This document shows, in pieces, positions 1,707-22,283 of a stretch of 23,936 nucleotides of DNA. A model generated the notes under the pieces. The model saw only the letters and a list, made by a program, of their open reading frames with translations. It was not told the DNA's origin and did not search any database. The stretch comes from a virus. Location of the stretch: the IMG/VR virus record IMGVR_UViG_3300046095_000103, positions 1 to 23,936 of that record; one strand, written 5' to 3'. The position numbers and the translations under genes are program-made. Position 1 is the stretch's first letter; each line of letters opens with the position of its first letter.

Positions 1707-2633
1707 CTATCGGCTGAAGTGAACTCGTGGCGGGTATTGTTGTTGTTGCGACATAATTTCTTCTGTTAAGCGTTGGTTATAAAGAGCAAACAATTGACGA
1801 TACGCATTAGTTGCTGAACCAAAGGTACGCTTGTTATCTGTTTCATCAGCCTGTGGTGACTGTGCACCAGTACGGGCTGGGTCTAGGTAGGCAATCAAAC
1901 GATATGAAGCACCAAGAATTACAATATCTTTACAAGACTCAGGTAGTCCAGTCTGTGTATTAAATGAAGTAGTAGCACTTGTAGATAGTATTGAAGGTGC
2001 AGTTGCATAAACAACTTTTACCTTACGGCCTGAAACAATTCTATCTCCAATAGTTACTGTCTGTGCACCCGTGCCCCAAGTTGCTTCATCTGGAAAAGAA
2101 TCTAAGTCCCATCGCTTAATGCGAATCCATTCTTTACTAGAACCAATATCTTGCCAGTGCATGGTTAAAATGTTTTGTATATTCTTGTTATCTAATTCGT
2201 ATGTATTTATTGCAGTGCTACTGAATGTAAAACTTGTCTGCTTAACGGCAAACATAGAAGAACCCATAGCACGGATAGTGTCTTGAATAGCACGCTTTAC
2301 AACGTGCTTAGGAAAAGTAGGAGAGATAGTTACTTTAGAACCAGCAACATGTGTATCAGCAGTAGAACCCATAAAGCCTCGACCATAAGGAGAGACTGTT
2401 CCTGTATTAGAAATACGGTCTACAGTATCTACCCATAGAAGTTCGTCATCAATTTCAACAATACCAGAGCCAAGGCGTTGAGCATCTGCAACACTAAAGA
2501 TTGTTGGTGCTGCAATAGTAGATGTAGTTGTAGTAATAGCAGCAGTTAAATGTGTAGCCTTGTCCTGCTGTATTGTATAACCAGCAAGGTTAATTAACAC
2601 CTCGTCCGTTAGTTCATTAATTAGAATACCCAT
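1707..2633 (-). CDS. Head-tail adaptor / connector candidate, 308 aa
   Basis: I chose the ATG at 2633 rather than a GTG two codons upstream, because it gives the TAATG overlap with the preceding gene that recurs throughout this operon; AAGGTG lies about 8 nt upstream. Residues 1-28 are helical. Residues about 30-104 form a beta module with GIVEIDDELLWVDTV, a YGRGFMGSTA turn and HVAGSKV, a pattern seen in many phage tail-interface proteins. A helix follows (KHVVKRAIQDTIRAM), then a beta-rich C-terminal half ending in a Gln-rich tail. The place between the capsid module and the tail fibre fits an adaptor or tail-tube-like connector of a short-tailed phage. The exact ring it forms is inference. 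It could instead be a minor tail protein. Confidence 0.55.
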   Translation of the reverse strand: MGILINELTDEVLINLAGYTIQQDKATHLTAAITTTTSTIAAPTIFSVADAQRLGSGIVEIDDELLWVDTVDRISNTGTVSPYGRGFMGSTADTHVAGSKVTISPTFPKHVVKRAIQDTIRAMGSSMFAVKQTSFTFSSTAINTYELDNKNIQNILTMHWQDIGSSKEWIRIKRWDLDSFPDEATWGTGAQTVTIGDRIVSGRKVKVVYATAPSILSTSATTSFNTQTGLPESCKDIVILGASYRLIAYLDPARTGAQSPQADETDNKRTFGSATNAYRQLFALYNQRLTEEIMSQQQQYPPRVHFSR

Positions 2634-2914
2634 TACCACTTCACCTTATCTGCCCAGTAGGCCGCACTTAGTTTGCCTTTGGCAATATTCTTAGCATGTC
2701 TTGCTTTAAAAGATTTACGTCTTGCTGCATAGGATGCAGACTCATTAGTCTTTTTTGGAGAACCAGATACACCCTGCTGCCCAAAACGAATAGTCTTGAC
2801 CTGAGTTCCTTCTTTAGCCACAACTACGTGTGACTTTTTAGGATGGGCAGGAGTACGCTTAGGCTTGTTAAAGCCTGATACACCAGCACGGGTTAATCTA
2901 GAATCTTTTTTCAT
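2633..2914 (-). CDS. Small basic conserved phage protein, 93 aa (DUF6321-like)
   Basis: The protein is Lys/Arg-rich throughout. It contains the conserved-looking segments RAGVSGFNKPKRTPAHPKKS, VKTIRFGQQGV and SFKARHAKNIAKGKLSAAYW, ending in ADKVKW. From memory this is a family spread across phages and other viruses that I believe is catalogued as DUF6321; the number needs checking. Function is unknown. It starts with an ATGA overlap with the upstream gene and ends with a TAATG overlap into the adaptor gene, so it is translationally coupled on both sides. The basic charge suggests nucleic-acid binding or packaging into the virion, which is inference. Confidence 0.8.
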   Translation of the reverse strand: MKKDSRLTRAGVSGFNKPKRTPAHPKKSHVVVAKEGTQVKTIRFGQQGVSGSPKKTNESASYAARRKSFKARHAKNIAKGKLSAAYWADKVKW

Positions 2915-3147
2915 CTGTATTTAGCCGTCTTCTTTGCAATAGATTTAGGTTGTTTAACAAACTGCTTACCTTTAGAGTTGCCTTGAGCCTTAGCCTTATT
3001 AGTAGCAGTCTTTTCTGCTGAACTTAAAGAAGCCCATGCAGCAGATGGTAAGTATCTTTTCCTGCCCTTAGAGGGCTTACCATCAGAAGTCTTCCACTTT
3101 TCTACAGTCCATTTCTTAAGTGACTGTTGAGATTTAGCCAAAGCCAT
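2911..3147 (-). CDS. Small basic protein, 78 aa, related in style to DUF5872-type proteins
   Basis: The protein reads as a short Lys-rich chain with LKKWTVEKWKTSDGKPSKG, a RYLPSAAWASLSSAEK segment, then KGKQFVKQPKSIAKKTAKYR at the end. The order 'kW..e.W.t..Gk.s.g..RYLP..A...Ls..E' is one I have seen in small viral and phage proteins of unknown function. It joins its upstream neighbour by TAATG and its downstream neighbour by ATGA. No catalytic residues can be seen. Confidence 0.75.
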   Translation of the reverse strand: MALAKSQQSLKKWTVEKWKTSDGKPSKGRKRYLPSAAWASLSSAEKTATNKAKAQGNSKGKQFVKQPKSIAKKTAKYR

Positions 3148-3326
3148 TACTTGTACCCTCCGCCAGCCTTCTTATATTGAACAGCAAGTAGTTGTGCTTT
3201 ACGAGCAGACCATTCACCAGGGTCTCCGCCCTTAGAACCAGCCTTAATCTTCTTAAACAAAGAAGCACGCATACCAGGTTTAGTATAATTACCAGCAGCG
3301 TTTACTTTAGATTTTGTCTTAGGCAT
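3147..3326 (-). CDS. Small basic conserved protein, 59 aa
   Basis: The ATG at 3326 overlaps the stop of the upstream gene (TAATG), and its own stop overlaps the next ATG at 3147 in the same way. The protein begins MPKTKSKVNAAGNYTKPGM, then carries LFKKIKAGSKGGDPGEWSAR and KAQLLAVQYKKAGGGYK. The pattern 'KIKAG.KGG.PG.WSARKAQ.L...Y...GGGY' is strikingly conserved across phages and some giant viruses in my memory, with unknown function. Net charge is strongly positive. The tight overlaps and intact conserved motif make it a convincing gene despite its length. Confidence 0.8.
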   Translation of the reverse strand: MPKTKSKVNAAGNYTKPGMRASLFKKIKAGSKGGDPGEWSARKAQLLAVQYKKAGGGYK

Positions 3327-3472
3327 TACTTTGTCTTCTTAGGCTTTGTATGAGTAAGCACTTTGCTAGATGCAGTATGCTTTGCCCCCGTATGAACCTG
3401 TCCGTTCATCTTGTGAACAGCGCCTGTATATTCTTTACCATTCTTAAGGTAATGCTTAGCAGTTTTACTCAT
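3326..3472 (-). CDS. Small basic His/Lys-rich protein, 48 aa
   Basis: The ATG at 3472 has AAGGA about 8 nt upstream and the stop overlaps the next gene's ATG (TAATG). The protein is MSKTAKHYLKNGKEYTGAVH followed by a Lys/His/Thr-rich remainder ending in TKPKKTK. I do not recognise a domain. The N-terminal 'HYLKNGKEYTGAVHKMNGQVHTG' stretch looks like a short beta-hairpin and is of a style common among small phage proteins. Coupling on the downstream side supports it as real. Confidence 0.7.
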   Translation of the reverse strand: MSKTAKHYLKNGKEYTGAVHKMNGQVHTGAKHTASSKVLTHTKPKKTK

Positions 3473-3496
3473 TATTTAATCCTTATACTAGAGTGT

Positions 3497-3820
3497 TTAT
3501 TTTTTATTTAGTTTTTTTCTTGATTCAATAAACTTCTTTTGGTCATTAAAATACTGAGAATCAGATTTAGTTGGAATTGCTTTAGGCGTAACCTTTGGCT
3601 TAGGCTTAGGAGTTGGCTTTACTTTGCCAATATCTTTTAGTCCAACCGTGCTGCCGTTAGGCAAAGCAACTACAACGCCAGGTTTTTTTGTGGGAGAAGC
3701 CATTGGCTTTTTAACACTAGGCTTAGCGCCTATAATTTTTGGCATTGGTTTCTTAACACTAGTTGAAGTAGGAAAACGCGGAGCCATTGGCTTTGGTTTT
3801 GCCGATGGTTTTTTTGGCAT
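3497..3820 (-). CDS. Pro/Lys-rich low-complexity protein, 107 aa
   Basis: About a quarter of the residues are Lys (26 of 107) and Pro is nearly as frequent. Repeated PKxKP, VKKPM and TPKPKPK units recall the tails of histone H1-like proteins. Only the last 25 residues (SDSQYFNDQKKFIESRKKLN) look foldable, as a helix. It overlaps the upstream 44-aa gene by TAATG; 24 nt separate it from the next gene. No enzymatic motif is visible. A role in binding or condensing DNA is inference from composition. Confidence 0.7.
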   Translation of the reverse strand: MPKKPSAKPKPMAPRFPTSTSVKKPMPKIIGAKPSVKKPMASPTKKPGVVVALPNGSTVGLKDIGKVKPTPKPKPKVTPKAIPTKSDSQYFNDQKKFIESRKKLNKK

Positions 3821-3954
3821 TACATGCCGCCAAACATTCCGCGCTTAGGCATAGTCTTCTTTGCTGTCTTCTTAACCATCTTCTTTTTAGCAGCCTTCTT
3901 TGCAACTGGCTTCTTCATACCCATTTTAGTTTCCATCTTTTTCATACCGTACAT
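3820..3954 (-). CDS. Met/Lys-rich micro-protein, 44 aa
   Basis: The ATG at 3954 overlaps the stop of the upstream gene and its TAA overlaps the ATG of the following gene, both as TAATG. The protein has 15 Lys and 9 Met in 44 residues: MYGMKKMETKMGMKKPVAKK, a Lys/Ala middle, then a MFGGM ending. Such Met/Lys micro-proteins near capsid genes are frequent in environmental phages, with no known function. The frame is open between two coupled genes, which is the main support. Confidence 0.7.
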   Translation of the reverse strand: MYGMKKMETKMGMKKPVAKKAAKKKMVKKTAKKTMPKRGMFGGM

Positions 3955-4268
3955 TATATTACTCCTACCTCTTTGAGTTTAGATACTGTATTGTTTTGTA
4001 TTATTTTACTATCACCCATGGTACTAGCATCAAATGCTTTACCCATGACATCAGATGCACGGAGTGCTTCCTGAATCTTTTTCATACTTGTTCCAGCAGG
4101 TTGAATCCCATCGGCACGTGCTGCTCGATAGGCTTTTAACTCACCATCCCATTTTTTATTACTTACCATCTTTTGAGAAGATGAATCTCCTGGATTTAAT
4201 TGCAACCCTAAAATCTTGCATCCAAAGCAACCTTCAACATCTTCTGGATGGTCTTGCCTATGTCTCAT
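3954..4268 (-). CDS. Putative metal-binding small protein (H-x3-H, C-x2-C), 104 aa
   Basis: The N-terminus reads MRHRQDHPEDVEGCFGCKIL, with His3, His7, Cys14 and Cys17 spaced to bind one zinc ion. The rest is a polar helical region with NKKWDGELKAYRAARADGI and KKIQEALRASDVMGKAFDA. I associate the 'RHR.D.....EGCFGC' start with small proteins encoded just after the capsid gene in actinobacteriophages. The start overlaps the upstream gene by ATGA and the stop overlaps the next ATG. Function is unknown; a structural or chaperone role in the head is possible. Confidence 0.7.
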   Translation of the reverse strand: MRHRQDHPEDVEGCFGCKILGLQLNPGDSSSQKMVSNKKWDGELKAYRAARADGIQPAGTSMKKIQEALRASDVMGKAFDASTMGDSKIIQNNTVSKLKEVGVI

Positions 4269-4516
4269 ACCGTCTCCACTGTATAACCTGCAGCCTCAAG
4301 GCTGGCTTTTTGGGCTGCATTTACCTCATAAGAGTATCCACCGATGTATGCTTCTTCAGCAGCCTCTACTTCTTCTGAAGATGGATAGCGAAGTTCATAG
4401 TAAACTCCATCTATCTTCAAGACTGTGATACCTCTTACAAGTCTGAACTGCTCGAATAGACGGCCTTCACCTGCAGGGCCTTCGCTTACTGTAGGTGTTG
4501 TGAATCTGTATGCCAT
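4265..4516 (-). CDS. Small post-capsid protein, 83 aa
   Basis: The start has a full AGGAGG ribosome site 5 nt upstream, the strongest in the operon. The protein begins MAYRFTTPTVSEGPAGEGRL and continues with beta strands (RLVRGITVLKIDGVYYELRYP), a Glu-rich helix and a final YTVETV. The 'MAYRF.TPTV.EGPAG..RLF' start matches, from memory, small proteins following the capsid gene in several actinobacteriophages. It is acidic, unlike the basic genes after it. Its function is unknown; a capsid-associated or connector role is plausible from position. It is coupled by ATGA to the next gene. Confidence 0.75.
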   Translation of the reverse strand: MAYRFTTPTVSEGPAGEGRLFEQFRLVRGITVLKIDGVYYELRYPSSEEVEAAEEAYIGGYSYEVNAAQKASLEAAGYTVETV

Positions 4517-4580: not shown

Positions 4581-5768
4581 TTAGATACGAACTGATGAAG
4601 CAGTCTCGATGCGGTATAGCGCCTCTTGACGGTAGATTGACCAGTTGATGATACCGTGCCAGCCGACTGGGCGGAAACGGTTCAACTTGTCTACAACGTT
4701 ACCAAACTCAATGCCTGGTTCCTTCCATACTGCTTCAGCAAGTGCTTGCTGTCCTAGTACGTAAGTGTTGTAAACGCGTGCCTTTGGAGTAACTGTAAGT
4801 GTGTTTGTTCCAACAGTACCTGAGTTAGCAACATCTACAGTGAATGTAGTGTTTGTTGCACCAACAGAAATTGCTGTAATCAAAGCACCTGAGCCTACGC
4901 CTGTACCTGAGATAGCATCTCCAACCTCAGCAAGACCACCAAATGCAGCGTTTGCTGCTACGATAGTAAATGCTGATGCAACTCCGCTTACTGCTGATGC
5001 AGTAGCAAGTGCTGTTAGAGCAGAACCTGAGATTGTGTTGGTCATGCGTGGTGTCTCAATGAAACGGACACCTTCCCATGCGCCAAGTTCACCAGCAAAT
5101 AATGGACCAACATTCTGGTACTCATGTGGTGTACGCCAGATGTTGTTACCTGTCTCTGTACGTAGGTCATGTGAAACTTCTGGGTGGATGTATGAAACAT
5201 ACATTCCGCCACGTGGAACAACATTATTAGCACGCAACTTTGTTACAGCGTAACGTACATCGCGGCCCTTGAATGTGTCTGTTGTTACAATTGTTGACTT
5301 GGCTGCAGTTGTAGAAAGTGCACCAGCAGATTCGCGGATGACATTTGTACCTGCATCAAGGATAGCAGCAACACCATTGTCTAGTGTAGTTGCCATGTTG
5401 AATGCGACTGCGTTAGCAATCCATGGGTCAACATCTGCAAGTGACAGTAATGACAACTTGCGAGTTGGAAGCACTACGCGACCTAGTTCTGTCTGTGAGA
5501 CATCTAGTGTTGTAGTTGCTGGTAGTGCTACTGCATCTGGGTCAACAGTTTCAGCAAGTGTTGCACCAGCAATTGTGGTGTCAGCAATATCGTTGTGGAA
5601 CTGGAAACGGATTGAAGAACCATCGTGAGTTGGGTTTCCAATTTTCTTGTCCGCGATTGCGCGGAACTGTGGCACTGAACGCAAGTTGAGTTCAATCAAC
5701 TTATCGTATGCCATAGTAACAAGATTGGAACCTAACCCAGAGGTTGAAGTTGAAAAGACATCAGCCAT
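4581..5768 (-). CDS. Major capsid protein, N4-gp56-like HK97 fold, 395 aa
   Basis: It directly follows the scaffold gene, as major capsid genes do. Residues 15-245 follow the N4-gp56 capsid pattern: MAYDKLIELNLRSVPQF, SSIRFQFHNDIA, a strand-rich region with LGRVVLPTRKLSLL, FNMATTLDNGVAAIL, then MYVSYIHPEVSHDLR (189-203) and GVRFIETPR (233-241). Residues about 247-328 look like an inserted Gly/Ala/Thr beta domain (GDAISGTGVGSGALITAI). The HK97-type chain then resumes (ARVYNTYVLGQQALAEAVWK) to the end. The start has an AAAGGGG site about 10 nt upstream, longer than ideal spacing. The family assignment is from remembered motifs; the capsid call also rests on position. Confidence 0.85.
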   Translation of the reverse strand: MADVFSTSTSGLGSNLVTMAYDKLIELNLRSVPQFRAIADKKIGNPTHDGSSIRFQFHNDIADTTIAGATLAETVDPDAVALPATTTLDVSQTELGRVVLPTRKLSLLSLADVDPWIANAVAFNMATTLDNGVAAILDAGTNVIRESAGALSTTAAKSTIVTTDTFKGRDVRYAVTKLRANNVVPRGGMYVSYIHPEVSHDLRTETGNNIWRTPHEYQNVGPLFAGELGAWEGVRFIETPRMTNTISGSALTALATASAVSGVASAFTIVAANAAFGGLAEVGDAISGTGVGSGALITAISVGATNTTFTVDVANSGTVGTNTLTVTPKARVYNTYVLGQQALAEAVWKEPGIEFGNVVDKLNRFRPVGWHGIINWSIYRQEALYRIETASSVRI

Positions 5769-5805: not shown

Positions 5806-6288
5806 TTATTGACCGCTGAGAATGGATATGATTTCTTCCTCAGATGAGGCATTTGCAATTAATCGCGCAATGTCTTCTGAATAAGCGGGAGTGTCGGCCG
5901 TTTGAGTGACAGAATCCTGTTGCTGTAAAGCACGTATGTTTTCTGTATCAACTGGCTTTTCTTGATTTGGCGTGTACCCAATTAAGTCACCATTCTCAAT
6001 GAGCCAGTTTGACACTGCGTCTTCATTGATAGTGTCTAAGTCCTTAAGGACAAGACGGGCAGCCTTCGTGTTCACTCCCTTTGATTCAAGGATTTCTTTA
6101 ACGGTTCGCTCATTGGATTCCTTAGAGAACTTCGCTAGTTGTTCTTCAAGTTCCTTAATGCGCTTTTCATCTGCTCGCTTGGCTTTGCGTAAGTTAGCGA
6201 TACCATCATCGCCATACGAGTTTTGAGAACGGGTTAATTCGTTCTCTAGATTTTCGTTATCGTTCTCCCAGTATTGTTCGTTGCTCAT
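5806..6288 (-). CDS. Capsid scaffolding protein, 160 aa
   Basis: It is acidic and helical. Residues about 30-62 form a clear coiled coil (NLRKAKRADEKRIKELEEQL). A compact helical region follows (RTVKEILESKGVNTKAARLV, then EDAVSNWLIENGDLIGY), and a Gln/Glu-rich tail ends in SSEEEIISILSGQ. The order 'NLRKA.K...KRI.ELE' followed by 'KG.N..AA.LV..D..AV..WL.ENG.L.G' is the usual pattern of actinobacteriophage scaffolds in my memory. Position immediately before the capsid gene supports it. The start has an AAGGGTG site 8 nt upstream. It should be lost or cleaved during head maturation; the HslV-like protease is a candidate for that, which is inference. Confidence 0.8.
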   Translation of the reverse strand: MSNEQYWENDNENLENELTRSQNSYGDDGIANLRKAKRADEKRIKELEEQLAKFSKESNERTVKEILESKGVNTKAARLVLKDLDTINEDAVSNWLIENGDLIGYTPNQEKPVDTENIRALQQQDSVTQTADTPAYSEDIARLIANASSEEEIISILSGQ

Positions 6289-6405: not shown

Positions 6406-7785
6406 TTAAAATGCGCTAGATTTACCGCTACCTAGTGCGTTACGGCCCAAGCCAGAGGTTCCACTAAATGAACCTACTTCTTTTTCGGCTAGTCTTAAAC
6501 GCTTGCGCTTAGCAGATTCAAGTTGTGCAAAAACTTCTTCTTCTGCTGTTCCTTGTGTGTAGTTAATTTTTTCTTCACCATAAATCTGACCAAGTTTTAA
6601 AGCAGTTGGAAGGACTCCGCTAATTGTTTCGTAACCTTCTTTAGCCTGTGCCTTAGTAATACCCATACGAGCAAGGGTTGAAGCACTAGCCACATCTGTT
6701 ATTAGATTCTGCTTTAATGCTTCAGAACCAATCTCAGCAGATGTAACCTTTTCCTGTAGTTTAGGTAGGTTTTCTTTAGGGCTAAGGAAGTATGCAATTA
6801 AATCTTGGTCTCCGATATTGTAGAAAGCCTTTAGAGTTGACTTAACTCCTGGGTCAGAGTTATTAACTCTAGTTACTACGGTATCAACTCTATCTTTAAA
6901 CTCAGTAGCAGAGATATCGTTACCAATAATATCTGCCATCTTAGCCTGTGCTGCCTTACGGTCTGTTCCAAAGAAACCCTGTTGTCCATAAGCACGAAGT
7001 GTTTCTTTATAAGAGTTCTCTAGTTCTAGGTATGCAGCCTCTGACAATACGTTAAGTCCTGCAGCACGGCGAGTTTCATTGCCTGCAAATCTAGTTATGT
7101 ATGCTTTAGTTTTGCGTAATTCTAAACCAGCCTGTTCAGAACCTAAACCACGTTCCATGTATCCTTCTATTTCTTTTAGCAAATCTGGGTCATCTAAGCC
7201 ATAATCCGCAAAAGTAGATTTAAGAATTGCGTAGGCATTTTCATCTACAGTTGATTTGTATTTACGGCCAGAGGGAATAAGAATCTTAGTTGTTCCGTCA
7301 GAATAAACACCAATAACATTCCCATACTCATCTCTTTCTGTAGAAACTAAAGTTATGGCTATGTTATTATTGTTGTTATTATTGTTGTTATTGTTGTTAT
7401 CATTACTACCATCATCAGTAGAACTTTTAATAGGAAGAGCCTTGGTAACAACCTGACCATTAATAACTTGCGACCCAATACCTGAATAATTATCTCTAAT
7501 CATAGCCGCAGTATCATACGCATTCCGAAGAGCATCAATTTGGGCTTGTGTTTTACCACTGGCTAATACTTTTGTTGCGTATGTATCAGTATCAACTGGT
7601 GGTACATAACCTGTTTCTCCGCGTGATGCGGCAGTAATACCAGCCATTGTTGTTGTATTGACAGTACTTGATTGTGTGCTTGCATTTAAAATTGCTTGCT
7701 GGTCTTCTGCTGCTTGAAGACGTGCTTTAGTTTTTGCTAATTGTGCTTTAGCCGCTTTTAATAATTGTGCTTGTGTTTGCGCCAT
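6406..7785 (-). CDS. Candidate virion (ejection/internal) protein with poly-Asn linker, 459 aa
   Basis: The N-terminal 30 residues form a Gln/Ala/Lys coiled coil (QLLKAAKAQLAKTKARLQAA). A low-complexity stretch follows, containing 12 consecutive Asn (residues 130-141). Residues about 180-440 are a helical domain with YLELENSYKETLRAYGQQGF, KAFYNIGDQDLIAYFLSP, LARMGITKAQAKEGYETI and a final AKRKRLRLAEKEVGSFSG. I recall this 'Y..LE..Y.ETLR.YG... / ..D..AY.L.P / G.T..QA..GY' pattern from virion-associated proteins of actinobacteriophages, with no firm function. It is coupled to the upstream gene by TAATG. Its place between the giant protein and the scaffold suggests virion cargo or an inner-head protein. 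Confidence 0.6.
   Translation of the reverse strand: MAQTQAQLLKAAKAQLAKTKARLQAAEDQQAILNASTQSSTVNTTTMAGITAASRGETGYVPPVDTDTYATKVLASGKTQAQIDALRNAYDTAAMIRDNYSGIGSQVINGQVVTKALPIKSSTDDGSNDNNNNNNNNNNNNIAITLVSTERDEYGNVIGVYSDGTTKILIPSGRKYKSTVDENAYAILKSTFADYGLDDPDLLKEIEGYMERGLGSEQAGLELRKTKAYITRFAGNETRRAAGLNVLSEAAYLELENSYKETLRAYGQQGFFGTDRKAAQAKMADIIGNDISATEFKDRVDTVVTRVNNSDPGVKSTLKAFYNIGDQDLIAYFLSPKENLPKLQEKVTSAEIGSEALKQNLITDVASASTLARMGITKAQAKEGYETISGVLPTALKLGQIYGEEKINYTQGTAEEEVFAQLESAKRKRLRLAEKEVGSFSGTSGLGRNALGSGKSSAF
7363..7398 (-). repeat. In-frame AAC/AAT trinucleotide tract (12 Asn)
   Basis: Twelve consecutive AAC or AAT codons encode poly-Asn within the 459-aa protein. One Asp codon and another Asn codon lie just before it. 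The tract probably acts as a flexible linker between the coiled-coil N-terminus and the helical domain. The mixed AAC/AAT pattern lowers slippage compared with a pure repeat. Confidence 0.9.
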
Positions 7786-14882: not shown

Positions 14883-15154
14883 TACTCATCTCCTTCTTCC
14901 AATTCATCATCTTCATCTGCTGGCGGTTCGCCAAAGGATTCTTTATTATATTCTTTAGCCATACGCATCATGCCATAAGCATTCCAGGGTGTCATTGAAT
15001 CTGACACTTCTGTATGCAAGTAACGAGTTCCATCATAGTCTGCCCATTCTGTAATTATTAACCAGTTAGCGCAGATGTAGTTAGACCCTTCAGGGTCTTC
15101 TTCTATTAGAACTCTTAATGCTTGCTCTATTTTCTCCCTGAATCTATCACTCAT
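14882..15154 (-). CDS. Small acidic protein, 90 aa
   Basis: It overlaps the protease gene by ATGA, so the two are probably translated together. Residues 1-20 are helical (RFREKIEQALRVLIEEDPEG). A beta core follows (NWLIITEWADYDGTRYLHTE), then a helix containing MTPWNAYGMMRMAKEY, and an acidic tail. The pattern 'W.li.Ew.D.DG.R.L.t..s..M..W...GM' occurs, from memory, in small proteins of actinobacteriophages with no assigned role. Coupling to the Ntn hydrolase raises the idea of a partner or inhibitor, without direct evidence. Confidence 0.65.
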   Translation of the reverse strand: MSDRFREKIEQALRVLIEEDPEGSNYICANWLIITEWADYDGTRYLHTEVSDSMTPWNAYGMMRMAKEYNKESFGEPPADEDDELEEGDE

Positions 15155-15705
15155 TTTGCGTACTGCTTATTCTCTTGTAGAAGAATATGAAACGGGGCTG
15201 AAGTTCCGTTGTTATTAATTGCTGCAATTTGCATTGCATCTAGTATTGTTGCTCCTGCGTGGAGAGCACCAAGTGCATAATCTCCACCAGAACCAATTGC
15301 ATAAAATCCAGTACTATTCATAGCAACTGCAAAGTCACTATCAATTTCAAATAAACTTCCATTGATACCAATAATAAGTTGTAGTTCAAACTTATCATCG
15401 CTATCTGATGGTTTGGTAAATTCAATACCAGCCTCGGATAATGTTGTCTTAAGAGACGGTGCAACTTTATTAATTACAAACTCATAAAGATTTTGTTTTG
15501 CTTTAGCACTTACTACTGGTGGTTGCCATACATGTAATGCAACTTGTAGTGCTCGATAATCTCCAGCACCAGCAATAATGTAACTACCACGTTCAATTGC
15601 TTTAACCATCTTTGGATGGGTATAAACCTTGCCACCCTCTGCTACACGTGAATCAGATGCTATAACGCAACCATCTGCGTTCTCTACGCCTACGATTGTT
15701 GTCAT
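15151..15705 (-). CDS. Proteasome/HslV-like Ntn hydrolase, candidate head maturation protease, 184 aa
   Basis: The protein starts MTTIVGVENADGCVIASDSR, matching HslV and proteasome beta subunits. Met removal would expose Thr2 as the N-terminal nucleophile. Asp18 aligns with the catalytic Asp17, and Lys32 or Lys35 in THPKMVKAIE with Lys33. IIAGAGD (43-49) matches the AG(F/S).G turn, and GSGGDYALGA (138-147) is very close to HslV GSGGPYAQAA. The length (184) is near that of HslV (about 175). Known family members cleave peptides inside ring chambers with an ATPase (HslU); no HslU is visible here. The gene sits between portal and capsid genes, where many phages encode the head protease, so it may process scaffold or virion proteins. 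Alternatives are self-processing without peptidase function, or interference with host proteolysis. The start has AGGGG 4 nt upstream. Confidence 0.85.
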   Translation of the reverse strand: MTTIVGVENADGCVIASDSRVAEGGKVYTHPKMVKAIERGSYIIAGAGDYRALQVALHVWQPPVVSAKAKQNLYEFVINKVAPSLKTTLSEAGIEFTKPSDSDDKFELQLIIGINGSLFEIDSDFAVAMNSTGFYAIGSGGDYALGALHAGATILDAMQIAAINNNGTSAPFHILLQENKQYAK

Positions 15706-15719
15706 TGTCCCCTACCTAG

Positions 15720-17459
15720 TTATCCTTGAGTTACTGTACGTGCCGATGCATTTGTTTTGCCACTCATTGAGAGGCTAGAAAGTAAACTTTGTAGACCCTG
15801 CGGTGGTTGAGAGCCACCTGCTGGAGCCGCGGTGGGAGCAGGGGACGGTTGCTCAACCATAGATGCTTCTCCAGCAGGTGGTAATTCTGGAGCGAACACG
15901 TCATTGATTGCGTCCTCAACCTGCGTGCCCTTCTGTCTTAATCGGATTACTTCTGCAATCTTCTTAACAATTGCAGTTGGGTCTCCGCCATTAGCAATAA
16001 GTTGCGGAATTGCCTGCGCCGAAGCATTAAGAGATGAGATAAGCGAATTACGCATTTCTTCAACTTCTATTTTTTCTTGCTCCTGAGTTACGTTAACTCC
16101 AAATGGCAATTCACGCATTGCTAAGTCCTTGGAGATTAACTTACCCCCAAGGGCCTGCAACATAAAGATAAGTCCCTGCGCTGGATTAAGACCAGCCAAC
16201 ATTCCATAACGAACATCTGCAGAGTAATCTCCCTTAATATCCTTTGACGGTAGATACTCAATTGCATAAGGACTACCCGCATCAATACCACGAATGGATT
16301 TTGTTTCATTAAAGATTTTCTCATCTACTTCAAAACAAAGTGATATAACAGTCTTTAATGTAGATGCAAGAATAGCCTGCGCTGATTTAACCTGTGTATC
16401 AAATCCACCCATAAGGGCTTGAACACCTTGACCAGTAATGATTGAAGCATCAAGATTTCCAGTACGTGATTCAGGATAGCGTGTACCCATACGCAATTCG
16501 TTTTGTAGAACTGCTTGCTCATTAAACAATGAGCCAGATACTGGTAGTTCAACTCGGCGTACTCCCGCAGGATTTTTAGTGCGGATAACTCCGTCACCAC
16601 CGAATTGGAACTCGTTCACATCGTCAGGAACAATCAATGGTGACTGAACAGCCTTCTCTGTTGCTTCCATCGCAAGTAATGCGAATCTATTACGAAGCAA
16701 TTGAATGCCGAGTACATCATCAAACTGTCCACGCATCTCTCCATCAACGGTTGGTCGTCTTGCGACTACAACCATTAACTTGCCAATAGGATTCTTGGCA
16801 CGGGAGATAACGAGATTCTGACGTTCTGGAACGTAGATAATAGATTGATGCTGGTCGTAGTAACGAACAATCTCAAATCTACTATTCATGTCTTGGTCGT
16901 ATCCGTCACGACCAAGTAAAACGTCAGCATGCTCTGGGAATTGAGAAATCAATTCAGCCAGTGGCATGGCATAACGCTTAGCAAAAGCAACGCAGCGTCC
17001 GTAGCGGTCAAATTCAGGATACGCCCCGACAGGACTTTCTACGCGAATACGCGGCAACTTTGCTTCAGTGTCCAATTCAATAATGAACGGAACAAACCCA
17101 AATGTTACATACCAATCTGCTCCAGTATACATCTGTACTTGCAAATCGGAATTATAAAAATAGTTAGCAGCAATACGAGTACGGTTGTCTGCTGCTTTAC
17201 GAGCACGGTCTTTAACTTGACTAACTACTGAGCAGTTAACTGCAGGTAACGGAGCCATAACTTCAGATAAGTCACGGGCTACAATGTCAACAAAGTTAGC
17301 AACTACGTTAGCCTCTATACCTTCTGGAAAAAAATCAGGATATACAGTAGCAATCTTACCCTGACGCACTAGTAGTACATCTTGCTGACGTGAATCACGG
17401 TCACGGGTACGGTCTTTTAAAGACGCAACACGTGCAAAAATTTGCTTATCAGTTAGCAT
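15720..17459 (-). CDS. Portal protein, 579 aa
   Basis: The gene lies downstream of terminase and before the head module. The N-terminal part has the usual portal layout: a helical start (DKQIFARVASLKDRTRDRDS), then YPDFFPEGIEANVVANFVDI and a beta-rich clip/wing region. The middle has the long helix FALLAMEATEKAVQSPLIVP and the segment GNLDASIITGQGVQALMGGF (337-356). After it, FDTQVKSAQAILASTLKTVI fits the channel-lining helix area. The last 60 residues are Pro/Ala/Gln-rich (EQPSPAPTAAPAGGSQPPQG) and probably disordered. Portals form the 12-fold ring through which terminase packs DNA. The start overlaps the upstream stop as TAATG with AAGGAA upstream. The call rests on overall pattern and position. 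Confidence 0.88.
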   Translation of the reverse strand: MLTDKQIFARVASLKDRTRDRDSRQQDVLLVRQGKIATVYPDFFPEGIEANVVANFVDIVARDLSEVMAPLPAVNCSVVSQVKDRARKAADNRTRIAANYFYNSDLQVQMYTGADWYVTFGFVPFIIELDTEAKLPRIRVESPVGAYPEFDRYGRCVAFAKRYAMPLAELISQFPEHADVLLGRDGYDQDMNSRFEIVRYYDQHQSIIYVPERQNLVISRAKNPIGKLMVVVARRPTVDGEMRGQFDDVLGIQLLRNRFALLAMEATEKAVQSPLIVPDDVNEFQFGGDGVIRTKNPAGVRRVELPVSGSLFNEQAVLQNELRMGTRYPESRTGNLDASIITGQGVQALMGGFDTQVKSAQAILASTLKTVISLCFEVDEKIFNETKSIRGIDAGSPYAIEYLPSKDIKGDYSADVRYGMLAGLNPAQGLIFMLQALGGKLISKDLAMRELPFGVNVTQEQEKIEVEEMRNSLISSLNASAQAIPQLIANGGDPTAIVKKIAEVIRLRQKGTQVEDAINDVFAPELPPAGEASMVEQPSPAPTAAPAGGSQPPQGLQSLLSSLSMSGKTNASARTVTQG

Positions 17460-18892
17460 TATTTACTATTCCTTTTTGCTTGTGCAATGGCTTGTGCAAT
17501 GGCTTTTCTTTGTGCTGGCGTAAGTCTCTTTTTTAACTCTGCTAAACGCTTATCACGTGCTACTTCTGCTGCACGACGAGAACGAGTACGAGCCTTCATT
17601 GTTTCTATTCTGCGTTCTGGAGTTACATACTTGCGCTTTGGCGCATCTTTAGGACCAGCGGGTTTTCTATTAGCACCTTTAGCAATCTTCTCACGTAAGA
17701 TTCCTTGAATACCACGTGCATCCATTGTCCGCATTGCTGCTTTTTCTTCTTTAGTTAGTTCAGCAAATGCTTTCCTAATTGCAACAAGTTCATCTTTAGG
17801 TGGTAAATCTTCTCTAACTTTTGGTGAACGTGCTTCAATAGTTTTATTACCACGAGTAGAACGTGCTCCAATACCAATAGTGCCTTCTGGATAAAACTCA
17901 CCACGGATTATTTGGCCTTGCGGTACATCTTCAGCATCTACATCGCGCTCACGCTCTGCGCGACCTTTATTCTTATAATCTTTTTTACGCATTTCTTCTT
18001 GTGCATTACGCTTGCGAAGCATTTCTTCTTGAGTACGTGGTCGTTCTTTTAATTCAGTTTTTTTACTTTTAACAGGAGGTTTAGTTACGGAACTTTTACC
18101 AGTAATTCTTCCTCTAGCATTAGCCGCTATACGGCGTTGCTTTGCTGCTTCTCTAGCCTCTTTTATTTCTTTAGCAGTTTTTTTAACTGCTGGCTTTGTA
18201 ATTTTGACAGATGTATCTGTTGACTTATTAACACGCATTTTGGGCTTTTGGAATTTACTTGCGCCACTAAAACCTTCTGGTGGTCGTACTCGTCTTGCAA
18301 TTTTAGTAGCATCACCTGTAGACAAAGGACGTTGTTCTGCACGTTCAGCAATTCTTGCTCTTGCTTTAGGAGACTTAGCAATTTCAACCGTAGTACGGCG
18401 ATTACGTTCCGCTCTAATAGCAGCCTTTTTAGTTAATGGTCCTGCTGCTGGCTTACGCTCAAACAGTCTAACTGGTGTCCTAGTTAATTCTTTTTTCTTT
18501 GCAACTTTTGCTACAGTTTGTGCTTTATTACGAGACATAACAACTCTGGCTTTTTCTGTTGCTATTCTTGCTGCTTTTTCAGGATTATCTGCAAGCATGC
18601 GCTTTGCCATTGCTTCAATAGAACCTTCGGCTGGTGACTCTCTAAATGCTTTATCAAGTTTAGGGTCAGAGTATTTAGTTCCTGAATACTCGTAACGCTT
18701 AGGGCCAGTCTTAATTCCTTTGTTTGCTAAGGTTTTAGCAGCACGGGCTTCGTTGCGAACAACTAGTTCAGCAACCTGACGCTTAGTTAATCCTTTTGCG
18801 GCAGCAGAGGTTAATGCTTTTTTAGCAGCAGTGGATACAGCGGCGCGGGCGATAAGAGATGCCACGCCAGCGGCTATCAATGGTACTGGCAT
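17459..18892 (-). CDS. Long Lys/Arg-rich protein, 477 aa, unknown
   Basis: The N-terminus (MPVPLIAAGVASLIARAAVS) is an Ala-rich hydrophobic helix and is nearly shared with the next upstream gene. The remaining ~440 residues are very rich in Lys, Arg and Ala, with many KKTA, KPPVKSKKTELK and RRAAEVARDKRLAELKKRLT segments, and look partly helical, partly disordered. There is no recognisable enzymatic domain. The composition recalls histone-like or core proteins. Its place between terminase and portal is unusual. It may be packed in the head with DNA or ejected, with the N-terminal helix touching a membrane; this is inference. It follows its neighbour by 9 nt and overlaps the portal start by 1 nt. 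Confidence 0.7.
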   Translation of the reverse strand: MPVPLIAAGVASLIARAAVSTAAKKALTSAAAKGLTKRQVAELVVRNEARAAKTLANKGIKTGPKRYEYSGTKYSDPKLDKAFRESPAEGSIEAMAKRMLADNPEKAARIATEKARVVMSRNKAQTVAKVAKKKELTRTPVRLFERKPAAGPLTKKAAIRAERNRRTTVEIAKSPKARARIAERAEQRPLSTGDATKIARRVRPPEGFSGASKFQKPKMRVNKSTDTSVKITKPAVKKTAKEIKEAREAAKQRRIAANARGRITGKSSVTKPPVKSKKTELKERPRTQEEMLRKRNAQEEMRKKDYKNKGRAERERDVDAEDVPQGQIIRGEFYPEGTIGIGARSTRGNKTIEARSPKVREDLPPKDELVAIRKAFAELTKEEKAAMRTMDARGIQGILREKIAKGANRKPAGPKDAPKRKYVTPERRIETMKARTRSRRAAEVARDKRLAELKKRLTPAQRKAIAQAIAQAKRNSK

Positions 18893-18901
18893 CTTTACTC
18901 C

Positions 18902-19618
18902 TTACTTCTTCTTTGGTGTTGCTCTAACCGCACGCTTACGAAGCATTGCTGGTCTATTGCTTCCACTATTAATTTTTACAGTTCCTTTAGGTGGATTTTT
19001 TGGATTAGGTACTGGTTTACGTGCTGGCTTACGTGCAGCAACTGTACGTGGAGTAAACACTTTAGGTCTTGCACCAAGTTTGCTATCTTTAACTGGCACT
19101 TCAACAAAATTATCAGAACTGCCTTTTGTTGGTTTTGCAGAATTAATTTTAACGCGATTTCTTGTAGACCACGTAGTATCTTTAGATGTACGTGGAGTAG
19201 TTGCTTTATTTCTTTCAGCGGTTGCTAATTTTTTACCAGCAATATTAGCCTTACGTGTAGTCTGTGCACGCATGGCTGCATCGCTGGCAGCGTCTTGCAT
19301 TTCATACATATTGCCATGCCGACCTGCTCCTTCTTCATATTCTTTAGCAGCCTTGTCGTATGCTCTGCCACGAGAACTATCAAATTTATAAAATGCTTTT
19401 GCTTGATTGGGAGGATTAGGAACTTGCTTACGAGCAGGCTTTACCTTAACATTAGATTTAGGTGCAGCAAGACGTTTTCTATTAGCAGCACTTACACGTA
19501 TTGTATTTGGTAATACTTTTTTTGCTGCTGCTTTCTTTATTAATTCTTGTGCAGCCTTCTTTGCTGCAAGACGAGCAGCAATTGCTGCTGCTCCCGCTAC
19601 TATCGCTGGTACTGGCAT
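18902..19618 (-). CDS. Long Lys/Arg-rich protein, 238 aa, MPVP N-terminus, unknown
   Basis: I start it at the ATG at 19618 (MPVPAIVAGAAAIAARLAAK) rather than 15 codons upstream. The internal start matches the N-terminus of the 477-aa neighbour, lies just past the upstream stop, and has an AAAGGG site about 8 nt before it. After the hydrophobic Ala-rich helix (1-35), the protein is basic throughout, with PRKQ/PARKPVPNPK repeats (QVPNPPNQAK and again PVPNPKNPPK) and a final RAVRATPKKK. No domain is recognised. The shared N-terminus suggests the two proteins are paralogs or go to the same place. Confidence 0.7.
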   Translation of the reverse strand: MPVPAIVAGAAAIAARLAAKKAAQELIKKAAAKKVLPNTIRVSAANRKRLAAPKSNVKVKPARKQVPNPPNQAKAFYKFDSSRGRAYDKAAKEYEEGAGRHGNMYEMQDAASDAAMRAQTTRKANIAGKKLATAERNKATTPRTSKDTTWSTRNRVKINSAKPTKGSSDNFVEVPVKDSKLGARPKVFTPRTVAARKPARKPVPNPKNPPKGTVKINSGSNRPAMLRKRAVRATPKKK

Positions 19619-19619
19619 A

Positions 19620-20384
19620 TTACTTACCCTTTGCTTTTTGACCAGAGCGTGTGCGCTTAGCACTTGCTGGTTTAGGTTTTAGATTAGACTTCTTTGAAAC
19701 AGCGTATGCTCCGCCTGCTGCTCCCGCACCAGCAATGCCAGTTCCAGTAGCAACTTTCTTTACAGTGCGAGTTGTATTAGATTGCATAGATTTTTTCATG
19801 CCTTTGGTTTCACGCTTTGCTTGACGATAAGCAGCAGCATAAGCCTTTGCTTTTTCACCTTCACGAATAGCATCAAATTTATCTAACTGGCCAAGAGTCA
19901 TATTATCTGGAACACCCTTGCGTAATCCACCTAGCGATGGTGTACTTAATGCAGGCATGCCTTTAACTTCTACGCCAGGAAATGGTTTATCAAGACCCAT
20001 TTTAATTTTAAAAGCATTTGAGTCGCCAACAGTTGTTGAACCATAAGAACCTTTTTTAGTACTTTGCCTAGCAATTTTTTTTGTTGTTTTAGCAAGTTGC
20101 TTAGTGCCTTGCTTCATGCGCTTTGCTTGCCCAATTGTCATGTTAGGAGTTTGTTTTAAATCTGGAGAACGTGCAATAATCTCTTTATCTTTTGCAATTC
20201 GTTTAGTCTTGTTAAAAGAGTCAACACCCTTTTTAACAATCTTTCCAGCCTTAAGAAACTTACCAGGTCCTATAAGCATGGCGGCATTGGCAGTTGCATC
20301 CTTAAGAATTTTTTTATTACTTACCTTAGGCTTTGCATCGGCTGCTTTTTTAATTGCTTTTGCCGCTTGTCCAGTCCGTGCCAT
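19620..20384 (-). CDS. Basic protein with a Gly/Ala hydrophobic segment, 254 aa, unknown
   Basis: The protein is Lys-rich from the start (MARTGQAAKAIKKAADAKPK). It has a short hydrophobic patch near residues 32-45 (ATANAAMLIGPGKF) and a Gly/Ala-rich stretch near the C-terminus (ATGTGIAGAGAAGGAYAVSK) that could enter a membrane. A Lys/Arg-rich tail follows (KPKPASAKRTRSGQKAKGK). The middle holds NMTIGQAKRMKQGTKQLAKT and, later, the related NMTLGQLDKFDAIREG, a possible internal repeat. No enzyme motif is seen. It is the first gene after terminase, 9 nt downstream, and ends 1 nt before the next ATG. Confidence 0.7.
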   Translation of the reverse strand: MARTGQAAKAIKKAADAKPKVSNKKILKDATANAAMLIGPGKFLKAGKIVKKGVDSFNKTKRIAKDKEIIARSPDLKQTPNMTIGQAKRMKQGTKQLAKTTKKIARQSTKKGSYGSTTVGDSNAFKIKMGLDKPFPGVEVKGMPALSTPSLGGLRKGVPDNMTLGQLDKFDAIREGEKAKAYAAAYRQAKRETKGMKKSMQSNTTRTVKKVATGTGIAGAGAAGGAYAVSKKSNLKPKPASAKRTRSGQKAKGK

Positions 20385-20393
20385 GTTAGTTCC

Positions 20394-22283
20394 TTATCCA
20401 AATTGTTCTTGCCACTGTTCTTGTAGGGCAAGGTCTAGGTTTACGCTTCCACGTTTTGATAGTTGAGCACGGGTAGCCCAACGGTTTTCTGAGTATTTTG
20501 CTATTACTGTGCTCTGTTGCATTAACTCACGTAGGCGTATAAACGCAAACCACATAGCCATAACGCAGTCAGTCTTGCCTTTGGTATCTGGTTTCCAAGT
20601 TATGAGTTGTTGGATTAAAGCCTTGATTCCCTCTGAACCATCAGCGGAAGGAAACTCAATCGTATTGTTCTTTTGGAATACTCCATCGTGCATAGTGCCT
20701 AGCATCGTTGACATAGATGCAACACCGTGGGATGTATCCCACTTGTTCTTCTGTGTAAAGTGTGGCTTTAAACTACAGCCGTATTGCGATAGCCATTGAC
20801 GTAAATCTGTATCTAGTTCATAGGCTTTCTGGTGTGCGTTAATTTCAACACGAAACTCATTAGGACTGTACTTGATTGTAAACTCTTCAATCATGGCACG
20901 AATTTTTTGCGGCGTAGGCTCAGACATGTTCTCACAGTCCAGCACATACATCTTTCCATCTACTCGGTTATAGGTAACCGCTACAAATGCAGCATGGCCT
21001 CTGCCCATAGCAGGGTCAAAACCAACAACTGTGTAACCTTCTACGTGGTTCGGATGTCCCACCACGCCCTGTTTTAATGGACCTCGCTTACGCATACCCT
21101 TGGTGCAAGCCTGCACCAGTGCGGGTGGGAAGATGGAATCTTCTTCGACATCCTCTTGTTGGTAGACTAAAGCCCAAGTACTAGGAGTTACTTCACTGCG
21201 CCGTTTAAACAAAGACGGTCCATCCCACTTGGGATATAGCCCTTGCTCATCGGGTAATTCATCTTCGTCTCCATCCCAAGGATGGTCAGACTTGGGCCAA
21301 AGGGTTACCCAGTCTTCTGGTTTCTCCCCATACTCCAATACCGCAGGCATAGCCATGTAAGTAAATGGGCACTTACCACCAGACCAATGCTTCGGATTAC
21401 GAAGTTCTTTATAAAAATCATTCGCCGCAATTCGTGTCCCTACAATCAACAACTTGCCATTCTTACCCAAACGGGTAATAACTTCTTTTTGTAACCAGTT
21501 AATCTGCTTGTCCCATTCATGGGCATTGGCAGTGGTAATGCAGTCATCCAAGATAATCAGGTCAGCACGAGCACCGTAAATCTGACCACCCATACCAAGT
21601 GCTTGGATGGTTGGGTCTTTTTCGGATGAGTCTCTAGCATCGCTACCAAGGTAGACGGTATCTACCTTCCAGGTATCAGCGTCTTGTTTCCAACCACCCT
21701 CAGGTCCATAGGTTGTCTGTAGTTTTAGCCAACGTGGGTGGGATAGTCTTTGCTTGATTGAGTAGACAAACTCTCGCGCTTTGTTAAGGGTCTTACTGAC
21801 CACAATAATGCGCACATTAGGATTAAGGGCAATTCGGTATGTAGAGTAGTTAACCGTTACAACGGTTGACTTAGCATGCTCAGGGGGTACGTTAACCAAT
21901 AATCGGTTCTGGTCCCCGTCTTCATAAATCATAGACTCATGTACCCATGAAGGTTCATAACCCTCTAGTAGGTCAATCCAGTCCTGATGGTGTGGAAAGA
22001 CCTGCTGGTTTAAAAATACTTCAGAAAACTGTGAAAAGGAAATCTCATCCTTTGCCACTCCGAGGGAGATGGTGGACTTATTTTTGGCATCAGCCTTAGC
22101 ATCCTCTAGGTCTCGGGCAAACTTTTTATCCCTTGATATCCAGATTCTTAGGGTATCTTCCTTGTAACCAATCTGAACCATAGCCCTAGCAGCAGGCATT
22201 CCTTCGGCAACCAACGCCAAGAATTTAGCCTTGGCCCCCGCCATTTTTTTGGTACGTGGGTTATTACTTTTACTGAATGTCAT
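20394..22283 (-). CDS. terL: Terminase large subunit with N-terminal HTH-like region, 629 aa
   Basis: This is the DNA-packaging motor. Residues about 16-66 resemble the helix-turn-helix of small terminase subunits (FLALVAEGMPAARAMVQIGY then TLRIWISRDKKFARDLEDA). The ATPase domain has a Walker A variant VPPEHAKST (132-140), Walker B LIILDD (242-247) and a VGTR coupling motif (281-284). The RNase H-like nuclease has Asp423 (VVGFDPAMG), Glu480 (FRVEINA) and Asp572 (KTDCVMAMW), the expected acidic triad. The length is above the usual 450-550 because of the N-terminal extension. No separate small subunit is visible. AAAAGGG lies 6 nt before ATG. It is the first minus-strand gene after the divergent region, so its promoter should be in 22284-22836. 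Confidence 0.96.
   Translation of the reverse strand: MTFSKSNNPRTKKMAGAKAKFLALVAEGMPAARAMVQIGYKEDTLRIWISRDKKFARDLEDAKADAKNKSTISLGVAKDEISFSQFSEVFLNQQVFPHHQDWIDLLEGYEPSWVHESMIYEDGDQNRLLVNVPPEHAKSTVVTVNYSTYRIALNPNVRIIVVSKTLNKAREFVYSIKQRLSHPRWLKLQTTYGPEGGWKQDADTWKVDTVYLGSDARDSSEKDPTIQALGMGGQIYGARADLIILDDCITTANAHEWDKQINWLQKEVITRLGKNGKLLIVGTRIAANDFYKELRNPKHWSGGKCPFTYMAMPAVLEYGEKPEDWVTLWPKSDHPWDGDEDELPDEQGLYPKWDGPSLFKRRSEVTPSTWALVYQQEDVEEDSIFPPALVQACTKGMRKRGPLKQGVVGHPNHVEGYTVVGFDPAMGRGHAAFVAVTYNRVDGKMYVLDCENMSEPTPQKIRAMIEEFTIKYSPNEFRVEINAHQKAYELDTDLRQWLSQYGCSLKPHFTQKNKWDTSHGVASMSTMLGTMHDGVFQKNNTIEFPSADGSEGIKALIQQLITWKPDTKGKTDCVMAMWFAFIRLRELMQQSTVIAKYSENRWATRAQLSKRGSVNLDLALQEQWQEQFG

Follow-up and report, generated by a model that had tools for sequence, protein, structure and literature searches.

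A hypervariable cassette of small basic genes in the head module of a putative Nanopelagicales phage and its relatives

The internal protein loci of T-even phages hold variable, exchangeable genes. In phage T4 the internal proteins IPI, IPII and IPIII are described, in the relevant passages of one account, as small and basic, present at ∼360 copies each, able to bind DNA at low salt and in many cases ejected, and IPI is stated there to inhibit restriction (PMC9026906). A further point of reference is Tlr6F, a small protein without known function which, in parts of two accounts, is conserved in polinton-like viruses, virophages and giant viruses and also occurs in some phages (PMC4642659, PMC12220804). 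Here we analyse a 23,936-base IMG/VR virus record (IMGVR_UViG_3300046095_000103; 41% G+C), the whole of which is referred to as the window, and in particular a run of six small, strongly basic genes at 2633–3954. The account that we favour, to which we would give an even chance, is that these genes of a freshwater phage form a hypervariable cassette whose small, basic products are internal head proteins, which would go in with the DNA and bind it.

A sequence-only reading had picked out this run as tiny, Lys-rich and strongly basic genes, and all six open reading frames (ORFs) were indeed found, on the minus strand and with the lengths it gave. Beginning with the island's first gene, they encode a 44-amino-acid (aa) Met/Lys/Ala protein (3820–3954, net charge +15), a 107-aa low-complexity Pro/Lys-repeat protein (3497–3820, +24), a 48-aa protein (3326–3472, +10) and three proteins called A (59 aa, 3147–3326, +12), B (78 aa, 2911–3147, +18) and C (93 aa, 2633–2914, +20); the Pro/Lys repeats and the Met/Lys micro-protein had been noted by the same reading. 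Isoelectric points (pI) run from 10.4 to 11.2 and the net charges sum to +99. The overlaps that it described join four of the five junctions, three by TAATG one-base overlaps and one, from the 78-aa to the 93-aa gene, by a four-base ATGA overlap; the remaining junction, from the 107-aa to the 48-aa gene, is a 24-base gap. A clear ribosome-binding site is missing at several of the starts, as is expected under coupled translation.

The ratio of non-synonymous to synonymous substitution (dN/dS) against relatives was calculated for C, A, B and the 48-aa protein, the alignments of the low-complexity 44- and 107-aa proteins being doubtful. Values fell between 0.035 and 0.115 throughout, with 0.04–0.11 for both C and A (six pairs each), 0.036–0.042 for the 48-aa protein (three pairs), and five usable pairs for B, where the sixth was saturated. 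Because of these low ratios, the four are taken to be real proteins under strong purifying selection.

The island was then compared across 80 loci from a capsid scan, of which 46 have the complete interval from g104 to tailA and 34 were dropped as incomplete. These two genes flank the island, g104 on the left (3954–4268, minus strand; phrog_24600; net +3, not basic; in 78 of the 80 relatives) and tailA on the right (1707–2639, minus strand; E = 2.4e-82), the latter being a working label for a 310-aa protein of phrog_7578 with no assigned function. Island ORFs were called mechanically on one strand, and as many loci are near-identical, counts of distinct proteins are given as well. The first point to note is that 262 of the 265 ORFs in complete islands (190 of 191 distinct proteins) have a pI of at least 9.5, against 368 of 1583 control ORFs elsewhere in the capsid-scan loci and in the portal-scan loci described below. 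The three exceptions, in L019, L047 and L048, are doubtful ORFs of 51 aa that agree with one another in size and charge. Complete islands hold four to eight genes, with a net charge of 60–186 (median 105), compared with +99 in the window.

The genes that supply this charge vary. All 46 complete islands contain C or a DUF6321 protein, 35 contain at least one of A and B, 13 the 107-aa gene and three the 48-aa gene; one relative, L037, has a DUF6496 gene. A and B are separate in 14 islands, as in the window, fused with B behind A in 18, and both missing in 11. The order is ABC in 31 islands, C alone in 11, B-DUF6321 in two, and C-A-B and B-C in one each. Among all 80 relatives the 48-aa family is rare (four), whilst ORFs similar to the 107-aa protein occur in 21 and to the 44-aa protein in 62; these last two BLAST counts may be too high, as neither low-complexity masking nor composition correction was applied, the match to the 44-aa protein being partly composition-driven. 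In the nearest sampled relatives (L009 and L011–L013; major capsid protein (MCP) 97% identical) C is 99% identical, yet the fused A-B is only 65–69% identical and the 48-aa gene is missing, whereas in the more distant L034 identity is 98% for A and 86% for B, but 78% for C and 43% for tailA. These contrasting identities point to a history of the 48-aa/A/B stretch unlike that of its flanks. We conclude that the conserved trait is the positive charge of the slot's occupants, while the genes themselves are swapped, fused and replaced; the survey of relatives suggested by the sequence-only reading thus recovers the basic cluster, but not a set of genes that is kept together.

Two further features of these loci were observed. 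A small basic family with the pattern HPGFKxVxxxIA...NPRLKxVxG recurs at L018:8452–8625, L338:1331–1498 and, as the reverse complement, L340 886–1050; its L018 copy has neither a Pfam nor a PHROG match. In L340 and L338 (G011 and G004) a 239-aa non-basic gene, resembling a glycosyltransferase when judged by eye, follows the basic island in the usual place of tailA.

One obligatory member of complete islands does exist, and it is C, or DUF6321 in C's place. C is present in 44 of the 46; the other two, L031 and L033, have the same gene sizes as each other, may be one lineage, and carry DUF6321 after B instead. Of 26 contigs of at least 30 kb, 21 have C and a different three have DUF6321 above cut-off, no contig carrying both; B is present in 18. 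Exactly one of the pair is therefore present in 24 of these long contigs, and the two with neither, G018 and G033, end ahead of the expected start of the island, as judged by portal or MCP position. In G027 a weak DUF6321 match, of 15.6 bits and so under the cut-off, falls within the C gene. Profile comparison with hhalign did not show homology between C and DUF6321 (probability 3.7 over 13 columns), and amongst the window proteins C scores 13.8 bits against DUF6321 (PF19846), under the cut-off of 28.5; all that the two have in common is the short string RR-SF-AR. By comparison, the DUF6321 proteins of L033 and of pelagiphage HTVC033P (L090) score 74.6 and 86.7 bits. DUF6321 occurs in 550 phage records, mostly of cyanophages.

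A second run of basic genes lies between the large terminase gene (TerL; 20394–22283, minus strand; Terminase_6C, E = 3.7e-5) and the portal gene (15720–17459, minus strand; phrog_104, E = 1.6e-22). The three large basic proteins reported here by the sequence-only reading are present, all on the minus strand: proteins of 477 aa (17459–18892, net +72), 253 aa (18902–19663, +46) and 254 aa (19620–20384, +45), the last with a 95% identical copy in L182. A portal scan gave 80 loci, of which 59 were readable and 21 were dropped. In the 59, 141 of 142 island ORFs are basic, the exception being a 32-aa ORF in L196, and the island ranges from no genes at all, in 14 relatives, up to seven. Clustering of the proteins of both islands gave 93 sequence families, only one of which is common to both. 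The window's nine basic genes thus belong to two exchange islands that are independent of each other and not, as had been proposed, to one structural block, since the large three form a separate island that 14 of the 59 relatives lack.

Links to the phage head come from homologues elsewhere. In Vibrio phage ICP1, GP125, annotated as the capsid protease, carries a C domain (residues 184–261) behind its S78_2/XkdF protease domain (S78_2 at 36–160), in the gene order terL, portal, GP126, protease, scaffold, decoration, coat. In Aphanizomenon phage CL131 the 1393-aa gp012 has a C domain (534–604) between portal and InPase/MuF domains, and liquid chromatography–tandem mass spectrometry (LC-MS/MS) of purified CL131 particles, as far as the part of the source cited goes, found 23 proteins including the portal ORF012, reported at protein level (PMC6293099). 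DUF6321 likewise forms the C-terminal domain of S-SCSM1_29, whose record is labelled 'virion protein', and of a 'structural' protein of S-B43, both cyanophages. Free-standing C lies among head genes in KBS-S-2A, P-HS2, S-CBS2 and a P22-like phage. A separate candidate, GR7B gp16, is annotated 'Peptidase_S78_2', which Pfam did not confirm. Since the cluster recurs, and since families from it are joined in other phages to head proteins, including one detected in virions, the six genes would best be read, provisionally, as a set that is packaged in the head, binds DNA or is injected. To that extent the earlier suggestion of a DNA-condensing or injected cargo stands, but as neither a conserved set nor a histone-like one.

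The capsid with which C is associated does not appear to matter. The window C is 77% identical to that of KBS-S-2A, 75% to that of the P22-like phage, 64% to that of S-CBS2 and 44% to that of P-HS2, yet the window MCP has no significant similarity to the MCPs of these four phages (best E = 0.24). Conversely, KBS-S-2A and P-HS2 have MCPs that are 69% identical but C proteins that are only 47% identical. With identities of 64–77% across unrelated MCPs, the ligand of C would have to be one that those phages have in common, and DNA would be the simplest candidate.

The same comparisons bear on the possibility, which we consider unlikely, that the proteins serve in assembly and are then lost from the particle, acting as a basic co-scaffold or chaperone for the prohead, for portal nucleation or for head–tail joining. 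Both islands do lie at assembly-gene junctions (MCP/tailA and TerL/portal), and the ICP1 head maturation protease to which C is fused belongs to a class that acts in the prohead core. However, assembly factors normally co-evolve with capsid or portal, contrary to what is seen for C; the TerL–portal island can be missing altogether; and the CL131 fusion protein was found in the particles.

In their distribution the families extend well beyond the window's group. A, B and C match phrog_17747 (E = 2.2e-34), phrog_14910 (E = 1.1e-37) and phrog_7595 (E = 3.9e-40) over nearly the whole profile, all three families being of unassigned function. By tblastn over 50,697 phage records, A was found in 17, B in 19 and C in 48, the carriers being phages of the Roseobacter group, Pelagibacter, Methylophilales, Puniceispirillum and Synechococcus/Prochlorococcus, and a search started from the divergent C of phage NCTB matched 112 phage records. 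A scan of IMG/VR for C gave at least 599 confirmed candidates, of which 80 were kept. Amongst 84,980 species genomes C occurs at 71 places, and as every one of these records is titled a metagenome-assembled genome or bin, the distribution fits a gene of lytic viruses rather than of host chromosomes. Both A-B and C contain conserved Trp, Tyr, Pro and Gly residues.

Several individual homologues were also recorded. The C homologue of Roseophage SIO1 (L093:4962–5216) is an intact 84-aa ORF that is unannotated in its GenBank record, and in HMO-2011 (L005, 3151–5340) an A domain forms the C-terminal part of a protein of 119 aa whose N-terminal part is additional and Lys-rich; a gene for a virion structural protein lies nearby. 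A C-domain fusion was noticed in L160, and a long ORF in L138 appears to be an over-extended ORF.

This breadth can be read in a different way, namely that the proteins are made late, are not packaged, and have host nucleic acid or ribosomes as their targets within the producing cell. As C, A and B span phages of Actinobacteria, Alphaproteobacteria, Betaproteobacteria and Cyanobacteria, such a ligand would have to be a general one, and some of their neighbours in other phages are non-structural. Against this, the genes sit inside the head module in the window's group, and the fusions are to head or virion proteins; we regard an effect confined to the producing cell as rather improbable.

Structures were predicted with AlphaFold2 from 68 C-family members (of the 94 distinct IMG/VR ones listed, plus that of the window) and from 52 A/B rows (66 listed plus the two window proteins). 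In the best C model (mean pLDDT 90.6, pTM 0.78) an N-terminal helix is followed by a beta hairpin and three helices, with the five models varying in mean pLDDT from 90.6 to 63.1. The A-B model is helical and compact (pLDDT 90.1), although with a pTM of 0.61 the placing of A against B is uncertain. On these models A-B and C would each fold compactly, which sets them apart from H1-like tails. The likeness to histone H1 drawn by the sequence-only reading is not borne out: for the eight proteins encoded at 2633–4516, Pfam gave nothing above cut-off and no histone or H1 family at E ≤ 1, the 107-aa protein had no match in either Pfam or PHROG, and three of the six basic proteins have predicted compact folds.

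Searches of the Protein Data Bank (PDB) by sequence returned no match to C, and for A-B a single match that is put down to chance (E = 0.41). Foldseek found no PDB match to C at E ≤ 0.001, and by VIA-align no chain reached Z ≥ 2 for either C (0 of 188) or A-B (0 of 11). Amongst predicted viral structures, Foldseek matched C to phage proteins named XkdF and ChaB, to ICP1 ORF125 and to a Tunisvirus protein (V9SE36; probability 0.99, E = 0.026), and A-B matched, over 49 columns, part of a ParB/sulfiredoxin phage protein of 1022 aa. The window C itself scores 12.4 bits against the Tlr6F/DUF5754 profile (PF19058), under the gathering cut-off of 27.4. However, 15 of 22 C-family members match this profile at E ≤ 1, the best being that of NCTB (43.8 bits, E = 2.5e-11), whose homologue is 30% identical to the window C (tblastn E = 2e-5). 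C, a small helix-hairpin-helices domain, thus appears to be distantly related to the Tlr6F/DUF5754 proteins of polinton-like and giant viruses, and we do not file it as Tlr6F without reserve.

Compact folding of A-B and C, if correctly predicted, also speaks against cationic lysis or membrane-disrupting peptides, an explanation that we hold to be very improbable. It draws on the endolysin or amidase genes that adjoin C, A or B genes in several other phages, but Pfam and PHROG searches recognised no lysis gene beside the six ORFs in the window, and acI bacteria, as hosts, have no outer membrane. Least probable of all is that small ORFs without a common function have piled up in a permissive spot and are basic through an A+T-rich genome: 41% G+C and the poorly conserved, low-complexity Lys-rich 44- and 107-aa ORFs would suit it, but no more than 368 of the 1583 control ORFs from these genomes are basic, no complete island lacks both C and DUF6321, and the low dN/dS of four of the six genes contradicts it, if only for A, B, C and the 48-aa protein.

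The surrounding genes are those of a head module. On the minus strand the window reads TerL, the three large basic genes, portal, an HslV-like peptidase gene and two small genes, then genes for proteins of 1772, 453 and 459 aa, an acidic scaffold-like protein (5806–6288, minus strand; net −14; phrog_7813, E = 7e-27, with weak matches to scaffold families phrog_172, 0.018, and DUF4355, 0.0035) and the MCP (4581–5768, minus strand; phrog_1357, E = 3.4e-58; Phage_capsid_3, E = 8e-16), and finally g83 (4265–4516, minus strand; phrog_8987; acidic, net −6; in 79 of 80 relatives), g104, the six basic ORFs, tailA and a 565-aa protein. The basic run had been placed directly after the capsid gene; it is downstream of it, but with the two non-basic genes g83 and g104 in between. 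The HslV-family peptidase gene (15151–15705, minus strand; phrog_1040, E = 1.9e-29), between portal and the two small genes, encodes an unusual peptidase for a head cluster, possibly a maturation protease. Residues ∼234–332 of the MCP also match part of the tail-sheath profile phrog_20545 (E = 0.0064) and are perhaps an inserted decoration domain, and the 459-aa protein (6406–7785, minus strand) contains a run of consecutive asparagines.

Within the phage collection, the window's DNA is matched best by the Planktophila phages E7 and F5, isolated, according to the portion of the source cited, on 'Ca. Planktophila' strain LanE-43 of the order Nanopelagicales (PMC10202952). Through this kinship, Nanopelagicales would be the host order of the window as well. 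E7 has the same gene order, with portal, HslV-like peptidase (55% identical), scaffold, MCP (48% identical), g83, g104, basic ORFs and tailA, so the arrangement is present in a cultured phage. Its basic ORFs after g104 are of 53, 118, 61 and 84 aa (net +15, +11, +17 and +17), the 84-aa one being C, 79% identical to that of the window; a 90-aa ORF (net +3, pI 9.2) stands between them and tailA.

For a cassette of internal head proteins, packaging, DNA binding, ejection and a role in the new host are all steps that we infer, and they could be connected as follows. The proteins would be made late from translation-coupled ORFs, whose position between the capsid gene and the next structural gene is observed. 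As polycations they might be drawn into the prohead along with the acidic scaffold and, after scaffold loss and DNA entry, would bind DNA non-specifically and neutralise part of its charge. They would then exit with the DNA and, by analogy with T4 IPI, could protect or arrange it in the next host, or counter the defences there. Were DNA the ligand, rather than one given capsid, a basic domain of any kind would suffice, which would explain exchange between unrelated phages, fusion, splitting and replacement while charge and slot persist.

Several considerations weigh against a packaged, DNA-binding role. The link to heads and virions comes from fusions of distant homologues, and it is by extension that the cassette's own proteins would be packaged and bind DNA. 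C, A or B adjoin lysis genes in ICBM2, CRP-13, S-EIV1 and HTVC033P, so a head role is not their sole late role. The conserved Trp, Tyr, Pro and Gly of A-B and C exceed the needs of mere charge neutralisation, no solved structure resembling the models of C or A-B emerged from the PDB searches made, and kinship with Tlr6F carries no information on function, as Tlr6F itself is without a known one. In addition, according to the pertinent part of one source, nothing indicates that basic proteins do much to neutralise the DNA of phages (PMC3281028).

A broader and more speculative proposal, which we rate well short of an even chance, is that aquatic tailed phages carry a modular protein packaging chromatin, in which interchangeable A, B and C/DUF6321 domains and Lys-rich tails would be packed in many copies with the DNA. 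The domains would come from a mobile pool of DNA companions common to polinton-like and giant viruses, with selection acting on total head charge and not on particular genes. If the packaged-set reading holds true, phages of some of the most abundant freshwater bacteria would pack their DNA with a basic protein set, contradicting the usual view that cations and polyamines do this in phages. Small unassigned families across phages would gain a first testable role, as head-packaged DNA companions, and for the Tlr6F-like family this role would extend to polinton-like and giant viruses. Cultured phage E7 makes testing possible now. No earlier description of these islands was found in the literature searched, outside which lay most subscription journals, preprints and supplementary files.

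Amongst described systems, polyvalent or MuF-portal fusion proteins (PMC5512222, in the part consulted here) resemble the islands in the C domain of the portal-C-InPase-MuF protein CL131 gp012 and in the likeness of A to part of a ParB/sulfiredoxin protein. However, the window genes are single small domains without enzymes, whereas the several domains that define polyvalent proteins are seen in CL131 gp012. Chlorovirus PBCV-1, in the portion of the account cited, has several basic virion proteins proposed to neutralise packaged DNA (PMC3281028), as is suggested for the cassette; it differs in being a large DNA virus of eukaryotes, and the likeness is one of description. DUF6321 of cyanophages and pelagiphages is likewise small and basic; in some phages it comes after A-B, and in related islands it stands where C otherwise would. 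The closest functional likeness is most likely to T4 IPI, IPII and IPIII, which resemble the island proteins (44–107 aa, pI 10.4–11.2 in the window) in being small, basic and associated with head genes, with DNA binding expected. As the libraries searched (Pfam and PHROG) gave no sequence match to T4 internal proteins, the cassette is compared with that family by analogy and not filed within it. Unlike the T4 proteins, those described here come from islands of four to eight genes, are accompanied by a second island, and belong to families common to unrelated phages.

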